Made by a program: the position numbers and the translations under genes
Source: Phormidesmis priestleyi BC1401
GTDB taxonomy: Bacteria > Cyanobacteriota > Cyanobacteriia > Leptolyngbyales > Leptolyngbyaceae
NCBI RefSeq assembly: GCF_001650195.1
Contig: NZ_LXYR01000003.1
Location: forward strand, 62,001 to 126,000
Direction of reading: 5' to 3'
DNA length: 64,000 nucleotides
Notes under the pieces: generated by a model
The model's input: the letters and a program-made list of their open reading frames with translations, nothing else
Database searches by the model: none
Told to the model about the DNA's origin: nothing
Part shown: piece by piece, positions 940-43,142 of the stretch
Layout: the number at the start of each line of letters is the position of its first letter
Numbering within the stretch: position 1 is the first letter of the stretch

Positions 940-1152
940 ATGCCTCTTCCTAAGATCGAAGAAGCCAGAAATCTAGGCGACCAAGAATTGGCAGATCAAA
1001 TTGTTGCCGTCAAAAAGCAGCTTTTTACACTGAGAATGCAAAAAGGCACTCGCCAATTAGAAAAGCCTCACCTGTTCAAGCACACACGCCATCAGTTGTC
1101 TCAACTGCTGACTGTTGAGCGAGAGCGGCAGTTGAAAAAGACTGAAGACTAA
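940..1152 (+). CDS. rpmC: Ribosomal protein uL29
   Basis: 70 residues, all predicted helical, with the L29 pattern E.R...D.EL...I...K..LF.LR.Q..T.QLE.P. L29 lies beside the peptide exit tunnel and helps form the SRP and trigger factor docking site. An AGGAG within the end of rplP serves as its ribosome binding site. It is followed by a 70-bp gap to rpsQ. Confidence 0.96.
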   Translation: MPLPKIEEARNLGDQELADQIVAVKKQLFTLRMQKGTRQLEKPHLFKHTRHQLSQLLTVERERQLKKTED

Positions 1153-1222
1153 AGGGCTGAACTCAAGATCTGGTTCTAAATTCACCTTTTTGTTTCATCC
1201 TTTTTTACCGGAGTAAATCGCA

Positions 1223-1474
1223 ATGGCAGTCAAAGAAAGAGTTGGTGTAGTGGTCAGCGACAAGATGGACAAAACCATTGTCGTGGCGATCGAGAACCGA
1301 TCCGCCCACCCTAAATACGGCAAAATTGTCGTCAACACCCAGCGCTATAAAGCGCACGATGAAGAAAACAAGTGCAAAACGGGCGATCGTGTCCGTATTC
1401 AGGAAACCCGACCTCTCAGCCGCACCAAGCGTTGGGTCGTGTCCGAAATCCTGGGTACTGCCTCTAAAGGTTAA
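1223..1474 (+). CDS. rpsQ: Ribosomal protein uS17
   Basis: 83 residues with the S17 signature: [19 protein letters not shown] at the N-terminus and [18 protein letters not shown] in the OB-fold C-terminal half. It is a primary 16S rRNA binding protein of the 30S body. ATG start preceded by CCGGAG. Next gene rplN begins 17 bp downstream. Confidence 0.97.
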
Positions 1475-1491
1475 ATGCGAGGGACTTAGAC

Positions 1492-1860
1492 GTGATTCAA
1501 CAAGAAAGTTATTTGAATGTGGCGGATAACAGCGGCGCTCGAAAGCTGATGTGTATCCGAGTCATCGGCGGCGGCAATCGTCGCTATGGCGGAGTCGGTG
1601 ACGTGATCATTGCCGTGGTGAAGGATGCCCTTCCCAACATGGCGGTCAAAAAATCCGATGTAGTGCGTGCGGTAATTGTGCGAACTCGACACACCATGCG
1701 GCGTGATAGTGGCATGAGCATTCGGTTTGACGACAACGCAGCCGTGCTCATAAACCAGGACGGCAACCCCAGAGGTACGCGGGTATTTGGTCCCGTTGCT
1801 CGTGAATTGCGCGACAAAAACTTTACCAAAATCGTTTCCCTCGCTCCGGAGGTTCTGTAA
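1492..1860 (+). CDS. rplN: Ribosomal protein uL14
   Basis: 122 residues starting at GTG, which reads [22 protein letters not shown], the standard L14 N-terminus. The family segment [26 protein letters not shown] closes the protein. L14 forms part of the 50S face contacting the 30S subunit and is also the known docking site of RsfS, whose gene is at 14713 in this window. The stop shares one base with the rplX start (TAATG). Confidence 0.98.
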
Positions 1861-2207
1861 TGGCAAGGGTTCAAAAAGAAGTCGTGCGTCACAAGATGCA
1901 CGTCAAGAAAGGCGACACCGTGAAGATTATCGCGGGCAGTGACAAAGGCAAGATTGGCGAAATCCTGCAAACCCTTCCTAAGTTGAGCAAAGTCGTGGTC
2001 AAGGGCGTAAATGTTCGCACCAAACACGTCAAACCTCAGCAAGAAGGCGAATCGGGTCAAATTGTCACCCAAGAAGCCCCGATTCATAGCTCAAACGTCA
2101 TGGTTTACTCCGAAAAGCAGAAAGTGGCAAGCCGCATCTGCTACACCGTTAACACCGACGGTAAGAAAGTTCGGATGCTAAAAAAGACGGGCGAGATCAT
2201 TGACTAA
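1860..2207 (+). CDS. rplX: Ribosomal protein uL24
   Basis: 115 residues. The KOW motif [20 protein letters not shown] is at residues 17-36, followed by [16 protein letters not shown]24 starts 50S assembly by binding the 5' domain of 23S rRNA. Its start overlaps the rplN stop by one base, implying coupled translation. A 70-bp gap separates it from rplE. Confidence 0.97.
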
Positions 2208-2277
2208 GAGACGCACTACTCTGCGTTTCAACAATCCACTAGCCCCTGACCAAGCCCAGGGAAGAGGAACCCAAACT

Positions 2278-2823
2278 ATGGCTCAACGATTAAAAGGCAT
2301 CTATCAAGAAACGATCGTTCCGAAGCTGACGGAGCAGTTCAGTTACACGAACCTTCATCAGGTTCCGAAAGTGGCAAAAATCACGATCAACCGAGGACTC
2401 GGTGAAGCCTCACAAAATGCGAAAGCGCTGGAAGCTTCGATCAACGAGATTGCGACGATCACCGGGCAGAAACCTGTTGTGACCCGCGCCAAGAAGGCGA
2501 TCGCGGGCTTCAAAATCCGCGAAGGAATGCCCGTTGGCGTGATGGTAACTCTGCGCGGCGATCGCATGTTTACCTTTCTCGATCGGTTGATCAATCTTTC
2601 GCTGCCTCGCATTCGTGACTTTAGAGGCATCAGCCCCAAGAGCTTCGACGGACGAGGCAACTACACGCTAGGTCTGAGAGAGCAGTTGATCTTCCCGGAG
2701 ATCGAATATGACAGCATCGATCAGATTCGCGGGATGGACATTTCAATCATTACCACTGCAAACTCCGACGAAGAAGGTCGCGCCCTGCTTAAAGAACTGG
2801 GCATGCCATTCCGGGACAACTGA
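2278..2823 (+). CDS. rplE: Ribosomal protein uL5
   Basis: I place the start at the ATG of [10 protein letters not shown] (base 2278), preceded by a GAAGAGGAA ribosome binding site. This gives 181 residues, the usual L5 length; the frame is open further upstream to 2200, but that extension is not conserved L5 sequence. The family segments [11 protein letters not shown] and [17 protein letters not shown] are present. L5 binds 5S rRNA and contacts P-site tRNA. rpsN, which follows rplE in many bacteria, is absent: rpsH is next. Confidence 0.97.
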
Positions 2824-2846
2824 TGCAGTTTCATTAAGAGGGAACT

Positions 2847-3248
2847 ATGGCGGTTAACGACACAATTTCAGATATGCTGACTCGCATCCGAAATGCAAGC
2901 CTAGCAAGACACCAAACGACCAAAGTGCCATCGACCAAGATGACGCGCAGCATTGCCAATGTTCTTAAAGCAGAAGGCTTTATTGCTGACCATGAAGAAG
3001 CGGGAGAAGGCGTTGAGCGTCATCTCGTGCTGAGTCTCAAATATCGGGGCAAAAGTCGCAAGCCGATTATCACTGCCCTCAAGCGAGTCAGCAAACCTGG
3101 ACTGCGAGTTTACGCAAACCGCAAAGAACTGCCTCGTGTATTAGGCGGCATCGGCATTGCGATCGTCTCGACATCCAGCGGCATCATGACCGATCGCGAA
3201 GCTCGGCGCACCGGAGTCGGCGGCGAAGTCCTTTGTTATGTCTGGTGA
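2847..3248 (+). CDS. rpsH: Ribosomal protein uS8
   Basis: 133 residues, full length. Starts [17 protein letters not shown] and ends with the conserved [30 protein letters not shown]8 binds helix 21 of 16S rRNA and in E. coli represses the spc operon by binding its mRNA. A GAGGGA box precedes the ATG. Confidence 0.98.
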
Positions 3249-3318
3249 GTCTGGATATTAGTCGTTGCTGTTGACTGGCTCACAGCGAACAGCTTCTATT
3301 CAAAAAAGGTGATCAGTT

Positions 3319-3867
3319 ATGTCTCGGATTGGTAAGCGCATTATTGATGTTCCCGCAACGGTGACGGTCACCCTTGATGGGCAACACGTTTCAGTCAAAG
3401 GTCCTAAGGGCGAACTCTCTAGAGTTTTGCCGCCCGAAGTGATCGTCGAGCAAGATGGAACGACGATCGAGGTCAAGCAGCGAGATGATTCTCGCGCAGC
3501 TCGTCAACGTCATGGTTTATGCCGCACCCTCGTTGCCAACATGGTTGAAGGGGTCTCTACCGGATTCCAGCGAAAGCTCGAAATTCAGGGTGTCGGTTAT
3601 CGTGCCCAAGTTCAAGGGCGAAACCTAATTCTCAATGTGGGCTACAGCAAACCTGTAGATATTGCCCCACCCGAAGGAATTCAGGTCGCGGTTGAAGGCA
3701 ACACTAACGTGACTGTCAGCGGCATCGATAAAGAAATTGTTGGAAACACTGCCGCCAAAATTCGGGCGGTACGTCCTCCTGAACCCTACAAAGGTAAGGG
3801 CATTCGATATGCTGGCGAAGTCGTCAGACGCAAGGTTGGCAAGACTGGTGGTAAAGGGAAGAAATAG
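3319..3867 (+). CDS. rplF: Ribosomal protein uL6
   Basis: 182 residues made of the two repeated L6 domains. It has [12 protein letters not shown] at the start and the C-terminal signature [19 protein letters not shown] at about residues 153-171. L6 lies near the factor-binding site of the 50S subunit. rplR starts 3 bp after its stop. Confidence 0.98.
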
Positions 3868-3870
3868 ATC

Positions 3871-4233
3871 ATGAAAATGACTCGTCGAGAATCAACCCGT
3901 CGTCGTCACGCACGGGTTCGTCGCACCGTTACCGGAACCTCAGAGCGTCCTCGTCTCGCGGTGTTTCGCTCTAACCAACACATTTATGTCCAGGTGATTG
4001 ACGATACCAGTCAACACACCTTAGTTTCTGCTTCGACCACTGAGCCAGAAATCAAAGGGCGGGTTGAGTCAGGTTCTAACTGCGAGGCTTCGACCGAAGT
4101 CGGCAAGTTGGTGGCTCAACGGGCGATCGCTAAGGGCATTCAAAAAGTGGTCTTCGATCGCGGGGGCAACCTCTATCACGGACGGGTAAAATCGCTAGCC
4201 GAAGCTGCCCGCGAAGCTGGTCTAGACTTCTAG
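3871..4233 (+). CDS. rplR: Ribosomal protein uL18
   Basis: 120 residues. It shows a basic N-terminus rich in RRR, then [20 protein letters not shown] and the C-terminal [26 protein letters not shown], both diagnostic of L18. L18 bridges 5S and 23S rRNA with L5. rpsE follows after 10 bp. Confidence 0.98.
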
Positions 4234-4243
4234 GAGAAACAAC

Positions 4244-4768
4244 ATGGCAAAAGGTCGTAAGAGTAACAAGCCTCGCGAAGAGAAATCAGACTGGCAAGAG
4301 CGGGTCGTGCAAATCCGTCGGGTGACCAAGGTGGTTAAGGGCGGTAAAAAACTCAGCTTCCGCGCGATCGTCGTCGTCGGGAACGAAAAGGGTCAAGTCG
4401 GCGTGGGTGTCGGCAAAGCCAGTGATGTGATCGGCGCGGTCAAGAAAGGCGTGGCAGATGGCAAAAAGCACCTCGTTGAAGTGCCTCTAACCAAATCGAA
4501 TTCCATTCCTCACCCGGCTCAAGGTGCAGGCGGTGGTGCAAAAGTAATGATGCGCCCCGCCGCTCCGGGTACCGGAGTCATCGCTGGGGGAGCGGTTCGC
4601 ACCGTTCTCGAACTGGCGGGTGTCAAGAATATCTTGGCGAAGCAGCTCGGTTCTGGCAACCCGCTCAACAATGCGCGGGCTGCGGTCAGCGCGTTAGATA
4701 ACCTCCGCACCTTTGCTGATGTGGCAGAAGAGCGGGGCGTTCCGATCGAAAATCTCTACGCAACTTGA
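4244..4768 (+). CDS. rpsE: Ribosomal protein uS5
   Basis: 174 residues. The double-stranded RNA binding fold is seen in [25 protein letters not shown]-type sequence near residues 18-42 and the [13 protein letters not shown]-like loop. The second domain has [24 protein letters not shown]5 shapes the decoding centre and mRNA helicase site. No rpmD (L30) follows, as is usual for cyanobacteria; rplO comes after exactly 70 bp. Confidence 0.98.
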
Positions 4769-4838
4769 GCAATGGGTGAATCGCGAGTCTTTACGGTTCA
4801 CCTACTTCTTGAGTAGTCCTTACTAAGAGCAACGAATT

Positions 4839-5315
4839 ATGAGATTAGAAGATGCTGTGCCTCAAGAAGGCTCAACCAAGCGCAAGCGCCGAATTGGTCG
4901 AGGTATTGCGGCAGGACAAGGCGCAAGCGGCGGCTTCGGGATGCGGGGTCAGAAGTCTCGATCGGGTCGTCCGACTCGCCCCGGTTTTGAGGGGGGTCAA
5001 ACGCCTCTCTATCGCCGATTGCCTAAATTAAGCTATTTCACCGTCATCAATCGGAAGCATTTCACGATTTTGAACGTCGGTGATTTGGCATCTCTTCCCG
5101 CCAATACTGAAGCGAATTTGTCTTCACTGATGGACGCTGGAATTGTCACAACTGATGATGGTCCGCTCAAGATTTTGGGCGATGGCGATCTGTCGGTGAA
5201 ATTGACCGTTCAAGCAACCGTGTTTACAAAAGGTGCCCGCGCTAAAATTGAGGCGGCAGGTGGAACGTGTGAAGTGCTGGCTGGAAAACCGACTTGGCAT
5301 CGCGCTAAAGCGTAG
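4839..5315 (+). CDS. rplO: Ribosomal protein uL15
   Basis: 158 residues, about ten longer than the typical cyanobacterial L15. The N-terminal glycine- and arginine-rich region ([25 protein letters not shown]) is the classic L15 tail that threads into 23S rRNA. The C-terminal globular domain ends near [10 protein letters not shown]. It precedes secY, as in the spc operon, with a 141-bp gap. Confidence 0.97.
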
Positions 5316-5456
5316 ATTTAGGGTCTGTGATGAGCCATCTGAACGGATATGTGAACGTCGTCCTTCGCTGTGAGAGAAGGTGATTTGCAGTCTGTGGCAC
5401 CTGTCGATGGGTGATTGTGAAAAACCACTTCAAGTGTATGTAAGAGGTATCCCTTT

Positions 5457-6761
5457 ATGGTCGTTAGTCGAGATAAAGCTCCAACCGCGCAGGAAACCTT
5501 TGTTCAGATGGCTCAAGCCGCCGGACTGCGAGGGCGTTTGCTGTTGACCATCGGCTTACTGGTTCTGGTTCGTCTGGGCATCTATATTCCACTTCCAGGC
5601 ATCGATCGCGCCGCGTTTGCCGCCAATATTCAAGGCAACTCAGCCTTGAGTTTTGTTGACTTATTCGCTGGGGGCGGTTTAGGAACGTTGGGGATTTTTG
5701 CGTTAGGCATTCTTCCCTTTATTAACGCCTCGATTATTTTGCAACTGCTAACCGCCGCGATTCCAGCGCTAGAAGATTTGCAGAAGAATGAGGGCGAAGC
5801 TGGACGGCGCAAAATTTCCCAAATCACAAGATACGTGGCAGGGGGATGGGCAGTGGTTCAGAGTTTGATGCTAACGATCGGGTTACTCCGTCCGTTTGCT
5901 TCAGATCCAGGTCCGCTTTTCATTACTGAAACGGTGCTTGCCTTAACCGCAGGCTCAATGTTTGTGATGTGGGTGGGCGAGCTAATCACCGAGCGAGGGA
6001 TCGGCAACGGAGCTTCTCTGCTGATTTTTCTCAACATCGTCTCGACGCTGCCTAAGTCATTGGGTAAGACCTTTGAGCTGGCGCAGAGCGGCGATCGCAA
6101 CGTGGTCGGTGGAGTCGTAATTCTGCTAATTGTCTTTCTAGCAATGGTCGTTGGTATTGTCTTCGTACAAGAAGGGAGTCGCCGAATTCCGATTATTTCT
6201 GCTCGTCGTCAAGTGGGTCGTCGGACTTATTTGGAAAAAAGCAGCTATCTGCCGCTGCGTCTTAATCAAGGCGGTGTGATGCCAATTATTTTCGCCTCCA
6301 CTGTTCTGACGCTTCCTGCTCTAGTCGCTCAAGCATTCCAGAATGCCTCGATCAGTCAGTTCATCAGCACCTATCTGGGTCCTACCTCCTGGCAGCACAG
6401 TGTTTTTTATCTTGTCCTGATTCTTTTCTTCAGCTACTTTTATGCGTCTTTGGTGGTTCAACCCGATGAGATGTCAAAGAACCTGAAGAAGATGGGAGCG
6501 AGTATTCCAGGCATCCGTCCCGGAAAGGCAACGACTGAGTACATTGAACGCGTCTTGAATCGGTTGACGTTTTTGGGTGCGATTTTCTTGGGCATTGTGG
6601 CGATCGTGCCGACATTTGTCGAAACTGCAACGCGAGTTCCGACCTTTCAAGGCTTTGGAGCTACGTCGCTGCTGATTTTGGTGGGTGTTGCGATCGACAC
6701 CGCAAAACAGATTCAGACCTACGTGATCTCGCAACGCTATGAAGGAATGGTGAAACAATAG
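5457..6761 (+). CDS. secY: Preprotein translocase subunit SecY
   Basis: 434 residues with about ten hydrophobic helices, the SecY architecture. Conserved pieces include [11 protein letters not shown] in the plug region (residues 41-51), the [11 protein letters not shown] loop and the cytoplasmic [19 protein letters not shown]. SecY forms the protein-conducting channel for Sec export into or across plasma and thylakoid membranes. ATG start preceded by AGAGGT. The stop overlaps the adk GTG start by one base. Confidence 0.98.
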
Positions 6762-7309
6762 TGACGCGATTAATCTTTCTAGGACCACCAGGGGCAGGCA
6801 AAGGAACTCAAGCGAAAGTGTTAGCTGACTCGCATCATATTCCTCACATTTCAACGGGGGACATTCTGCGGGCAGCCGTTTCCGAGCAGACGGCTCTGGG
6901 CATCAAAGCCAAAGGCTATATGGATCGGGGTGAACTGGTTCCAGATCAACTCGTGATCGATTTGATTCGAGAGCGATTAGGACAACCTGATGCCAAACCT
7001 GGTTGGATTCTAGATGGATATCCGCGCACCGTTGTTCAAGCAGACTCGCTTGATGGACTGCTCACAGAACTCAATCAGAGTTGTGATCGAGTCGTCAATT
7101 TCGATGTTCCCGACGAGGCACTGGTTGAGCGAATGTTTAGTCGAGGTCGCAAAGATGACCACGAAGATGTAATTCGTCGCCGCCTAGAAGTTTATCGGGA
7201 GCAAACCGTACCCCTGATTGATTACTATCAGACGCGTGAGAAGCTGACCTCGATCGACGGCAACCAATCAATGGAAGATGTAGCCACATACCTCAGTCAG
7301 GTCATTTAG
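6761..7309 (+). CDS. adk: Adenylate kinase
   Basis: 182 residues starting at a GTG that overlaps the secY stop. The P-loop [10 protein letters not shown] is at residues 8-17, and ISTGDILR and DGYPRT are the AMP-binding motifs. The LID region is the short form ([17 protein letters not shown]), lacking the 25-30 residue insertion and zinc cysteines of long adenylate kinases. It interconverts ATP plus AMP and two ADP in the cytoplasm. The secY-adk pairing is common in bacterial spc operons. Confidence 0.97.
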
Positions 7310-7498
7310 CCAATGATTCTGTCAGACTCTTTGAGCAGACAATTATTTGTGATACACCCTTACCACAGATTGAGATTAGCAAACTGTGTTTAGGAGGTTA
7401 AAAACAAATTTAATGATCTAAACTCAAAGAAGCGGACAAAAACCCGCTTAGGTTCTGTTGACTTCTGAAATTATTCACAGTATTGGAGGCGCTCAAGT

Positions 7499-7726
7499 TT
7501 GTCTAAGCAAGATCTGATCGAAATGGAAGGAACCGTCATTGATTCCTTGCCGAATGCGATGTTTCGCGTTGACCTTGATAACGGATTCAACGTTTTGGCA
7601 CACATTTCAGGGAAGATTCGTCGGAACTACATCAAGATTCTTCCAGGCGATCGAGTCAAAGTTGAACTCACTCCTTATGACCTGACAAAGGGTAGAATTA
7701 CCTATCGTCTGAGAAATAAGAAGTAG
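7499..7726 (+). CDS. infA: Translation initiation factor IF-1
   Basis: 75 residues of an S1/OB-fold protein: [43 protein letters not shown], and [11 protein letters not shown]. The start codon is TTG, supported by a TGGAGG box ending 9 bases upstream and by the conserved N-terminal sequence. IF-1 blocks the A site during initiation. It is preceded by a 189-bp gap that may hold its own promoter. Confidence 0.96.
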
Positions 7727-18814: not shown

Positions 18815-19078
18815 CTACCACTCCCACTCTGCCTGATCCCAATCGGTTGTACTTGCTTCATCAAGAAGGATGTCGTCGCGTTGGGTTGCCATTGAGGAAA
18901 ATGCAATGTCCCAGCCATTTCGTAACTGTAGGGCTGCGGCACGAATAATAAGCTGATCGCCTTGCACTTCGATCTCAACGTCTGAAAAAATCCCGCTTTG
19001 CTCTAGGAGGGTTTTGGGAATACAAATTCCTTGAGAGTTGCCAATTCTAACGATTCGAGTTCTAATGCTTGCGCTCAT
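18815..19078 (-). CDS. MazE/AbrB-type DNA-binding antitoxin, orphan
   Basis: 87 residues. The N-terminal 50 form a SpoVT-AbrB swapped-hairpin domain: RTRIVRIGNSQGICIPKTLLEQSG, then VEIEVQGDQLIIRAA. The C-terminal tail is acidic and tryptophan-rich (DWDQAEWEW), as in antitoxins that block a MazF-type toxin. No toxin gene follows: the sequence downstream runs into the convergent ABC gene after 29 bp. It is either an orphan antitoxin or a stand-alone regulator. A perfect 12-bp palindrome lies 23 bp upstream of its start. Confidence 0.85.
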   Translation of the reverse strand: MSASIRTRIVRIGNSQGICIPKTLLEQSGIFSDVEIEVQGDQLIIRAAALQLRNGWDIAFSSMATQRDDILLDEASTTDWDQAEWEW

Positions 19079-19112: not shown

Positions 19113-19406
19113 TGTTGCTACAAATGAGGCGATCGACCAGCGAAGCCAGGAATTAGGCTCACGTCAATTGAGTGCAGTCATCAAAGCATGGGGAATGACG
19201 GGGCGATCGCCGACAGCCATACTAAATCTGAAAATATGCAGAAAGATTCCGTCTATCTACCTGATTTGGGATGATATGCATAAACTTTCTCTCTAAAAAC
19301 AAGTTAGACGGCTCAGCTTTCGACTATACGATAGCTCAACATAAACTGTGTTGGCGTTAAGATAATTTCTAGAGCGCTCCCTGAACGGGTATACGAGTTA
19401 ATTGGC

Positions 19407-20396
19407 ATGGATAAACCGCAGCGCAATCGAATAACTGCGATCATCAAAAATCGAAATCAGCACTATTTGGATTCTGTAGCAAGCGCAGACTACTACTCAA
19501 AATTTCAGCAGAAGTTTACTAATTTAACCCGTAAAACTCGTTCACTAACACGCAAAGAGTATGGTTCTGAAAACTCCATCGCAGAAGCCTCACGACTAGG
19601 TAGGCTCATAGCAGGATTTATAGAAGATATGAGACAGAAAAAGGCACCTGTCTTTGACTTCCTTGAATACAAGGCTGTACTTAATGAGTATCTAATCAAT
19701 TATTTAGAGGCAAAACGAAAGAGTAATTATGATGGAGGATGTGCGTCCTATGGAGAAACTTTATTTGTTTTGTATCTAGATCTCTTCATTACTGCAACTA
19801 TCAATGAGATAGATAGAGAACTGCAAGCAAATCCTCCATTCCTCATTAATCCTAAGACTTCAGCGGTTCTAGAGATAGACGTATTTTTTGAAAATTTCAA
19901 ACTAGGCTTTGAATTTCAAGGAGAACATCACTATACTGATCTAAAGACTCAAGAAAAAGATTTATTTAAGATAAATGAATGCCGAAATAAGGAAATTGTT
20001 CTAATCCCTGTTAATATTTCTCAGTTAAACGGTAAAATAATTCAGGCTCTCGTTATAAACTCAATTAAAGTTTTTCTGGGAATTCATGATCTTTTTACTT
20101 TGAAGAGAGACACATTCAAGCCACCGACTACTATTAAGTCAAAACAATTACTAAACTTCTGCAAAATTACTGAAAGGTTATATACATCAACAGCTATTTT
20201 TGATACGTCTACTGCATGGCTTGATGGTGAGGCTGCAAAGTATATAAGTAATGTTCAGTTCCGAAGTCCAATCTCAAGTAATATCCCTGCTCCTAGACAA
20301 ACGCCAGCGACAGGGGATTTTGATATTGTTACTTTGTATAGAGGATTGAAGCGTATTGCAGTTTTTCGTAAAGTGTTTCGCAAATCTACAAAGTAG
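19407..20396 (+). CDS. Predicted PD-(D/E)XK nuclease, lone and AT-rich
   Basis: 329 residues; I cannot name the family. The middle shows a restriction-nuclease core: SYGETLFVLYLDLF with E117, then LEIDVFF with D158, then GFEFQGEHHY with E169-x-Q171, followed by KDLFKINECRNKEIVLIPVN. This E...D...ExQ arrangement is typical of Vsr-like and DUF559-like nucleases. The N-terminal 100 residues are charged and helical. The gene is clearly richer in A and T than its neighbours and has no methyltransferase or helicase beside it, which points to transfer. Start is the first ATG, without a clear ribosome binding site. Confidence 0.7.
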   Translation: MDKPQRNRITAIIKNRNQHYLDSVASADYYSKFQQKFTNLTRKTRSLTRKEYGSENSIAEASRLGRLIAGFIEDMRQKKAPVFDFLEYKAVLNEYLINYLEAKRKSNYDGGCASYGETLFVLYLDLFITATINEIDRELQANPPFLINPKTSAVLEIDVFFENFKLGFEFQGEHHYTDLKTQEKDLFKINECRNKEIVLIPVNISQLNGKIIQALVINSIKVFLGIHDLFTLKRDTFKPPTTIKSKQLLNFCKITERLYTSTAIFDTSTAWLDGEAAKYISNVQFRSPISSNIPAPRQTPATGDFDIVTLYRGLKRIAVFRKVFRKSTK

Positions 20397-20437
20397 TCTG
20401 TATACAAAGTAGTCTTGAGTACATGCCACCTCCTAAC

Positions 20438-20480
20438 AATTCAACCCAAGCGGCTTTGGTCAAGCCGCTTGGGTTGAATT
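20438..20480. terminator. Bidirectional hairpin between convergent genes
   Basis: A perfect 19-bp inverted repeat (arms 20438-20456 and 20462-20480, loop TGGTC) lies between the plus-strand nuclease gene and the minus-strand DUF3352 gene. It can end transcription from both sides, although no strong T-run follows. Confidence 0.65.
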
Positions 20481-20587
20481 CAAATACCCTAGAAACTGCT
20501 GACCCGAACCGTTAGCGATCGCAAGATTCTTCTCTGCGTGATGCAGAGGTGTTTAATGATGAAACGATCGGACTCCTAAAACATGCG

Positions 20588-42215: not shown

Positions 42216-43142
42216 ATGCACGAATCTAATGTACTGACGCACGGATCTAACGCACTTCGGAGACTGGAAGAACTGCTTACCGAAGCAGTTACTAATGGAG
42301 ATGGGAATGAACTATCGGGACTTATTTTGTTGAGAGCAATGAAGCTTAGTGAGCAGCCACAAAATATTGTGGACTTTTACGAGCTTTTGAGTAAGGCTGA
42401 GGAAGAAGCAAAAAGTATAAGAAATAAAACAAAGATCGATAGGTACATTCAGACACTAGAAGAACTGCATAAAGTTTTTGTTGTTAGCCATATATGGAGC
42501 ACACAATGGGCTATTTTTGCTGGTCAAATTAACAACAATATTCTTAATACATTGGATTCCCTAGCGGATCTTTTTGATAAGCAAAATCCTGCAATATTTC
42601 TAGACCAAGAATTTCTAGAGAAACTCAAAGATGAATTTAGTGATCTTTTGACTAAAATCCTCGAATCTGATTTGTCTAGAGACTTAAAGATATTTTTGAG
42701 AGAGCGAATTGAAGATATTCTGAGAGCAATACGTAGATACCCCATAGACGGAACTGAAGGATTGGAAAAGGCTACTAAATCATTCGTGAGTGATTTAGCC
42801 ATGACAGAGCATAGTCTTCAGGAGAAGGACAAGGATGCTCCCATCTACAGGAGAGTTAAAGCATTTGTGCTCAGCTCGATTATGTATACCGCTCCTATCA
42901 TTGGAGCTATTCCTGATATTGATGGTTATTGGAGACCTAAGTTTGAGGAGTTAGTTGCAGGTCATGAAAAGGTCGAGAAGATCCTTTGTGAATCACCAAA
43001 TATTCAAGAAGCTTTTGAAAAGTCTTCCAAGATATTTGATAGGCAACCACAGAAGATCATCACAGGTAATAGAGAGCCGAAAGCCCTTCCTGCTTCCAAG
43101 CAAGAGCTAGAAACTAATACAAACAATAAAAGTAATCCATAA
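42216..43142 (+). CDS. Unknown helical protein, AT-rich
   Basis: 308 residues. I do not recognise it. It is almost entirely helical, acidic in the middle, with a hydrophobic stretch at about 216-233 (AFVLSSIMYTAPIIGAIP), perhaps membrane-associated. The C-terminus is a low-complexity, Asn/Thr/Lys-rich tail. The DNA is richer in A and T than its neighbours. It is followed by toxin-antitoxin genes, so it may belong to an acquired island; a defence role is only a guess. Confidence 0.65.
   Translation: MHESNVLTHGSNALRRLEELLTEAVTNGDGNELSGLILLRAMKLSEQPQNIVDFYELLSKAEEEAKSIRNKTKIDRYIQTLEELHKVFVVSHIWSTQWAIFAGQINNNILNTLDSLADLFDKQNPAIFLDQEFLEKLKDEFSDLLTKILESDLSRDLKIFLRERIEDILRAIRRYPIDGTEGLEKATKSFVSDLAMTEHSLQEKDKDAPIYRRVKAFVLSSIMYTAPIIGAIPDIDGYWRPKFEELVAGHEKVEKILCESPNIQEAFEKSSKIFDRQPQKIITGNREPKALPASKQELETNTNNKSNP

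Follow-up and report, generated by a model that had tools for sequence, protein, structure and literature searches.

Introduction

The nucleases closest to the protein described here are the EDxHD homing endonucleases, a group represented by I-Bth0305I, for whose motif we use the name given in PMC3943268. A large and mostly unannotated outgroup of EDxHD/Vsr endonucleases has been found through phages (PMC12350094). With regard to integrons, screens reported in PMC12409362 found phage protection by about 10% of the Vibrio cholerae integron cassettes that were tested, and the same paper reports that cassette-borne type II and type IV restriction enzymes are shortened or streamlined. Integrons also occur in archaea, and exchange of their cassettes with bacteria is possible (PMC9668308).

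Here we analyze a gene in a 64,000-nt stretch of the genome of the cyanobacterium Phormidesmis priestleyi BC1401, referred to below as the window. The gene encodes a new sequence family within a known nuclease superfamily, located on a known kind of vehicle, and we consider it almost certain that both assignments, integron cassette and nuclease fold, hold.

Results

An earlier note on this DNA, made from the sequence alone, described a lone, AT-rich gene for a PD-(D/E)XK-like nuclease of unknown family. The open reading frame is exactly as described there (Table 1), and its composition is indeed unlike that of its neighbors, with a GC content of 35.8% and a GC3 of 28.8% compared to 50.0% GC for the whole window. 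When relatives were sought in approximately 85,000 species genomes, three full-length ones were found, in an uncultured archaeon (L001, a MAG; 52% identity to the 329-aa protein), in a Candidatus Methanoperedens archaeal MAG (L002; 50%) and in a Nitrospinae MAG (L003; 40%). The N-terminus MDK..R is common to all four proteins, and the identity matrix places the cyanobacterial nuclease nearer to the archaeal copies than to the Nitrospinae copy. Since full-length relatives at these levels of identity occur in three unrelated genomes, the frame is a real gene and not a chance ORF, conserved from end to end and very sporadic in its distribution. A whole-genome search of sampled relatives and phyla gave no full-length copies beyond those already known, a search of phage and plasmid collections with the nuclease gave nothing, and viral contigs gave no result when searched with the single nuclease protein. 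The label of unknown family was likewise borne out, as searches of Pfam, NCBIfam and PADLOC, and of the PDB by single sequence, left the 329-aa protein without a significant match; it matched neither of the Vsr family models PF03852 (Pfam) and TIGR00632, and showed only weak matches to homing/HNH endonuclease families in PHROG (E ~6e-5). No methylase, helicase or reverse transcriptase is found in an operon with the gene, and the earlier note was also correct in calling it lone; it stands alone because it constitutes a single integron gene cassette. On either side of it lie recombination sites, attI and attC, which had been overlooked. Elsewhere in the window, a second AT-rich stretch (42216-43142, + strand, ~41% GC) contains a 308-aa ORF of unknown kind, which adjoins a pair of small genes on the - strand resembling a toxin-antitoxin module.

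The stretch upstream of the gene (~19166-19308) is one of several repeats dispersed through the genomes of the host and its relatives, and shares 72-83% identity with attI repeats of the host and of same-genus genomes over stretches of 75-100 nt. In one genome of the same genus (G001, contig C58) the attI repeat immediately precedes an intact integron integrase, in divergent orientation to it, and ends with ...CTCTCTAAAAAGAAG/TTAGC at the first cassette (the slash marks the recombination point). Homologues of the repeat precede intI by ~75-300 bp in several further genomes of the family. Because the same repeat precedes an intact intI in G001 and in these further genomes, the repeat at 19222-19303 is taken to be attI. 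Homology ends at G19303, and the recombination point follows this base (...CTCTCTAAAAACAAG/TTAGAC), so that the insertion is at the attI core site G/TT. Just upstream of attI, a gene for a MazE/AbrB-like antitoxin (18815-19078, - strand; PF04014, E 3e-6) was observed, with no toxin partner seen adjoining it. The host genome (G000) contains six further attI-like sites distributed over different contigs (L052, L053, L054, L057, L058 and L061), most of which are followed by an ORF and several then by an attC, the encoded proteins being a methyltransferase, a MazF/PemK-like protein and unknowns; attI-cassette modules are scattered through this genome despite the lack of an intact integrase.

The site downstream of the gene matches sites in arrays of the host and of sister genomes with blastn E-values of 3e-10 to 1e-9. 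In one of the sister genomes (G005), three such attC sites are spaced 1 kb apart between ORFs and form a cassette array. A covariance model was built from 13 attC sites of sister-genome loci, with the window site left out. These 13 sites form an attC-type hairpin in which 11 of 20 pairs are changed on both sides, and the model finds the window attC with 25.3 bits (E 0.0014 over 138 kb). With E-values of up to 0.1 accepted, it matches 40 sites in the host, 59 in G001 and 67 in G005. The left arm of the window attC is replaced by the palindrome (fold z ~-6), having become an exact inverted copy of the site's inner half; four pairs of the normal fold are broken and the fold is probably crippled, and the change looks like a template-switch conversion, or correction, of one arm. 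A reading of the palindrome as a mere terminator was rejected, since homology to attC sites extends over all 87 nt of the stretch.

Comparison of these flanks shows that the attI and the attC enclosing the nuclease gene are of the same type as those of the family's chromosomal integrons, and because the gene is flanked in this manner we regard it as an integron cassette, which the gene fills. The pattern of a lone AT-rich gene is thereby accounted for as that of a captured cassette. When matches over the TIGR02249 cut-off were called as integron integrases, 29 of 42 genomes of the family had one. In the host genome attC sites number in the dozens and there are several attI sites, yet no intact integrase, as no match exceeded this cut-off; a complete integron, which includes an intI with its specific domain, was accordingly not found in the host, and no intI remnant was detected within the window. 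Without an integrase acting in trans, the cassette can probably no longer move.

Table 1. Features of the cassette locus in the window and of the Nitrospinae locus (L003; positions on its own contig). A slash in a sequence marks the recombination point.
Feature	Position	Strand	Basis and remarks
Orphan attI	19166..19303	+	homology to attI repeats; strong at 19222-19303, weaker similarity from ~19166
Integron gene cassette, 1208 bp	19304..20511	+	TTAGAC to ...GAACCG; bounded by attI and attC core sites
Nuclease ORF	19407..20396	+	ATG start, 329 aa; sole gene of the cassette
N-terminal all-helical region, residues 1-114	19407..19748	+	AF2; no family match
Nuclease core, residues 115-224	19749..20078	+	AF2 secondary structure and invariant alignment columns
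C-terminal helical region, residues 225-329	20079..20393	+	AF2 and alignment of full-length relatives; conserved P-AP-R stretch
attC	20431..20517	+	CCTAACAATTC ... GAACCG/TTAGC; left arm degenerate; blastn and covariance model
Perfect 19-bp palindrome	20438..20480	.	arms 100% complementary; in place of attC left (L'') arm
L003 repeated 5' flanks	4786-4854 / 6884-6953
L003 repeated 3' flanks	5972-6041 / 7471-7540
L003 putative Nitrospinae cassette	4853-5961

The structure of the 329-aa protein was predicted with AlphaFold2 (AF2) from a 24-row alignment of nuclease cores and resulted in a model with a pLDDT of 91.4 and a pTM of 0.89; it superseded an initial run on four sequences, in which the core was poor (pLDDT 66). 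The predicted core consists of a helix (115-127), three strands (137-141, 157-161 and 166-171), a helix (179-194), a strand (198-203) and a final helix (209-224), and the order alpha-beta-beta-beta-alpha-beta corresponds to the PD-(D/E)XK topology. D158 lies on the strand 157-161 and E169 and Q171 on the strand 166-171, and E117, H175, D185 and K188 are likewise placed in the core. Four long helices (3-23, 30-49, 55-77 and 86-105) make up the N-terminal part, which is possibly involved in DNA binding or dimerization, and several helices within 227-328 the C-terminal part. E117, D158, E169 and Q171 are invariant, together with many flanking residues, in all four full-length proteins. In the wider set of 24 aligned cores D158, E169, Q171, G172, D185 and K188 are invariant, E117 is kept in most rows, and a histidine after the third strand (H175 here) was found by inspection in every row.

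Profile searches of viral contigs recruited a broad range of proteins that share this core. Predicted structures of viral proteins, including restriction and homing endonucleases and DUF559 proteins, match the core with a probability of 1.00, and one short viral target superposes on it with 2.1 angstrom over 102 columns. The best and only plausible PDB match of the core profile is 3r3p (I-Bth0305I; E 0.005), in Pfam individual core relatives match MTES_1575, DUF2726, PvuRts1I-like_N and Vsr, and in PADLOC core relatives match restriction and homing profiles. A fold search of the PDB with the full-length nuclease model yielded nothing significant, which is probably due to the predominance of its helical regions; AbaSI and PvuRts1I were among the weak matches. 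No SRA-like modified-base reader domain was recognized in the protein. Structure prediction therefore shows a metal-dependent PD-(D/E)XK nuclease core of the Vsr/EDxHD branch between two helical regions. The earlier note had asked for such a prediction, and the nuclease core is present in it; its assignment to the PD-(D/E)XK-like nucleases is supported by the model, the conserved active-site residues and the profile matches, and is now narrowed to this branch, its active site of E117, D158 and E169-x-Q171 agrees with the conserved columns, and the 115-residue N-terminal helical region that it described is seen in the model, the C-terminal region being helical as well.

Linkage to housekeeping genes, named earlier as a finding that would speak against such a nuclease, was looked for and is absent; the four copies occupy four unrelated neighborhoods and unrelated intergenic places. 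No Rfam intron was found around any of them at the gathering threshold, and no defense gene is linked to the nuclease at any copy. The insertion points resemble integron core sites at two of the four copies. On the Nitrospinae contig, the flanks of the nuclease recur around a second gene (Table 1), and the R' sequence formed by the first bases of the cassette, GTTAGGGGCG, is complementary to the R'' sequence CGCCCCTAAT at the stop-codon end. The circularized site folds at -46.7 kcal/mol, a value that 1 of 300 shuffles reached. On the basis of this complementarity and fold, the Nitrospinae gene too is probably carried on a cassette, whose attC is of a different type; the site was not detected by the cyanobacterial attC model. 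The second gene enclosed separately by the same 5' and 3' flanks is hemerythrin-like. The model, which is specific for cyanobacterial attCs, recognized no attC at either archaeal copy. Simple attC candidates at these copies were rejected because they were not clearly above shuffles. The XerC/D-like recombinases of the archaeal genomes were likewise not accepted as integron integrases, because their matches to the IntI model skip its middle and score below the cut-off. One archaeal copy (L001) is located between mutS and mutL, on the strand opposite to both, and a VapC-like gene lies with it in this interval (941-7215). The other adjoins CBS-domain and ligase-like genes (names read from translations) close to the end of its contig.

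Discussion

Our best guess for the function of the nuclease is single-gene restriction or anti-phage defense, to which, as the complete explanation together with the cassette, we give an even chance. Insertion of the cassette would have been the work of an integron integrase, since lost or acting in trans, that recombined attC x attI, and a promoter located in attI or close to it, or within the 103-nt leader, would drive expression of the gene. The helical regions of the protein would bind DNA or dimerize, and the core would cut one or both DNA strands by means of metal-activated water, resulting in one-gene restriction of invading phage or plasmid DNA. If the nuclease restricts, the host must be spared by other means because there is no methylase, and this might be achieved by dependence on modified bases, by a target that is rare or missing, or by activation during infection only. 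Defense is favored because the nuclease is solitary, mobile, sporadic and borne on an integron cassette, and this single-gene distribution across two domains was counted toward it. The lack of a linked defense gene at the four copies is to be expected for single cassettes, yet the genomic context gives defense no support. The protein itself, moreover, has no PADLOC match, the nearest recognized cores belong to homing endonucleases of phages, whose nature is selfish and not defensive, and integron cassettes carry many other functions. The more specific proposal of a previously undescribed, Vsr/EDxHD-type one-protein anti-phage restriction system, with an integron cassette as the vehicle of its spread between bacteria and archaea, is put forward only tentatively.

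The main rival to defense is a free-standing, homing-type selfish endonuclease, which would cut the allele without the gene and be copied by repair, the cassette context being secondary. Such a gene would fit the sporadic distribution, and the closest cores by sequence and fold are those of phage homing endonucleases and I-Bth0305I. However, the four copies are not inside an intron, an intein or a conserved gene, the integron-like core sites at two insertion points explain mobility without homing, and the zinc-finger repeats of the phage relatives are absent, which makes homing unlikely. Toxin-antitoxin genes are often carried on integron cassettes, and another attI cassette of the host genome encodes a MazF/PemK-like protein, so that a stand-alone toxin or another cassette function, such as RNA cleavage or array stabilization, was considered as well. 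RNA is indeed acted upon by some Vsr-fold proteins, for example the RAP domain of FASTKD4 (PMC11879112). We nevertheless hold a role of this kind to be improbable, given that the ORF fills the cassette and leaves no antitoxin partner in it, while the MazE-like gene lies outside the cassette on the other strand. Similarly improbable is the function of a Vsr-kind DNA repair enzyme, nicking at mismatches or lesions and gained as a cassette, even though the core is Vsr-like, one archaeal copy is found between mutS and mutL, and recQ is only 3 kb away in the window. The archaeal nuclease is encoded on the strand opposite to mutS and mutL and adjoins the VapC-like gene, an unrelated gene separates recQ from the nuclease gene, the remaining copies have no repair neighbor, and a sporadic distribution is ill-suited to housekeeping repair.

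Compared with the known systems, the nuclease most closely resembles I-Bth0305I and the other EDxHD homing endonucleases, in that our alignments put E117, D158, H175 and D185 at the E, D, H and D positions that give the motif its name, as putative catalytic residues. In contrast to these enzymes, it is neither intron-encoded nor found in a phage, its gene being an integron cassette around which no intron was found, and its core is flanked by all-helical regions instead of zinc fingers or NUMODs. It shares its fold class with Vsr, MTES_1575, DUF2726 and PvuRts1I-like_N (PF03852, PF18741, PF10881 and PF21598), models that are matched by core relatives but not by the 329-aa protein itself. Links to the type IV restriction enzymes PvuRts1I and AbaSI are weak, in fold and core, and the reader domain was not recognized. 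Similar to the cassettes of chromosomal integrons, the locus has G/TT boundaries and attI and attC sites homologous to those beside the intact IntI of the family, although its host has no intact integrase and the left arm of its attC is a perfect palindrome. The nuclease family, for which the libraries searched contain no model, spans bacteria and archaea, between which integrons may act as vehicles of transfer (PMC9668308), although the archaeal copies are without a recognized attC. Finally, like the defense genes in the integron reservoirs described in PMC12409362, the nuclease is a single compact gene on a cassette, its defense role here being a proposed one, and thus represents a compact single-gene candidate for integron-borne defense beyond Vibrio and the mobile integrons, in which such defense has been shown.
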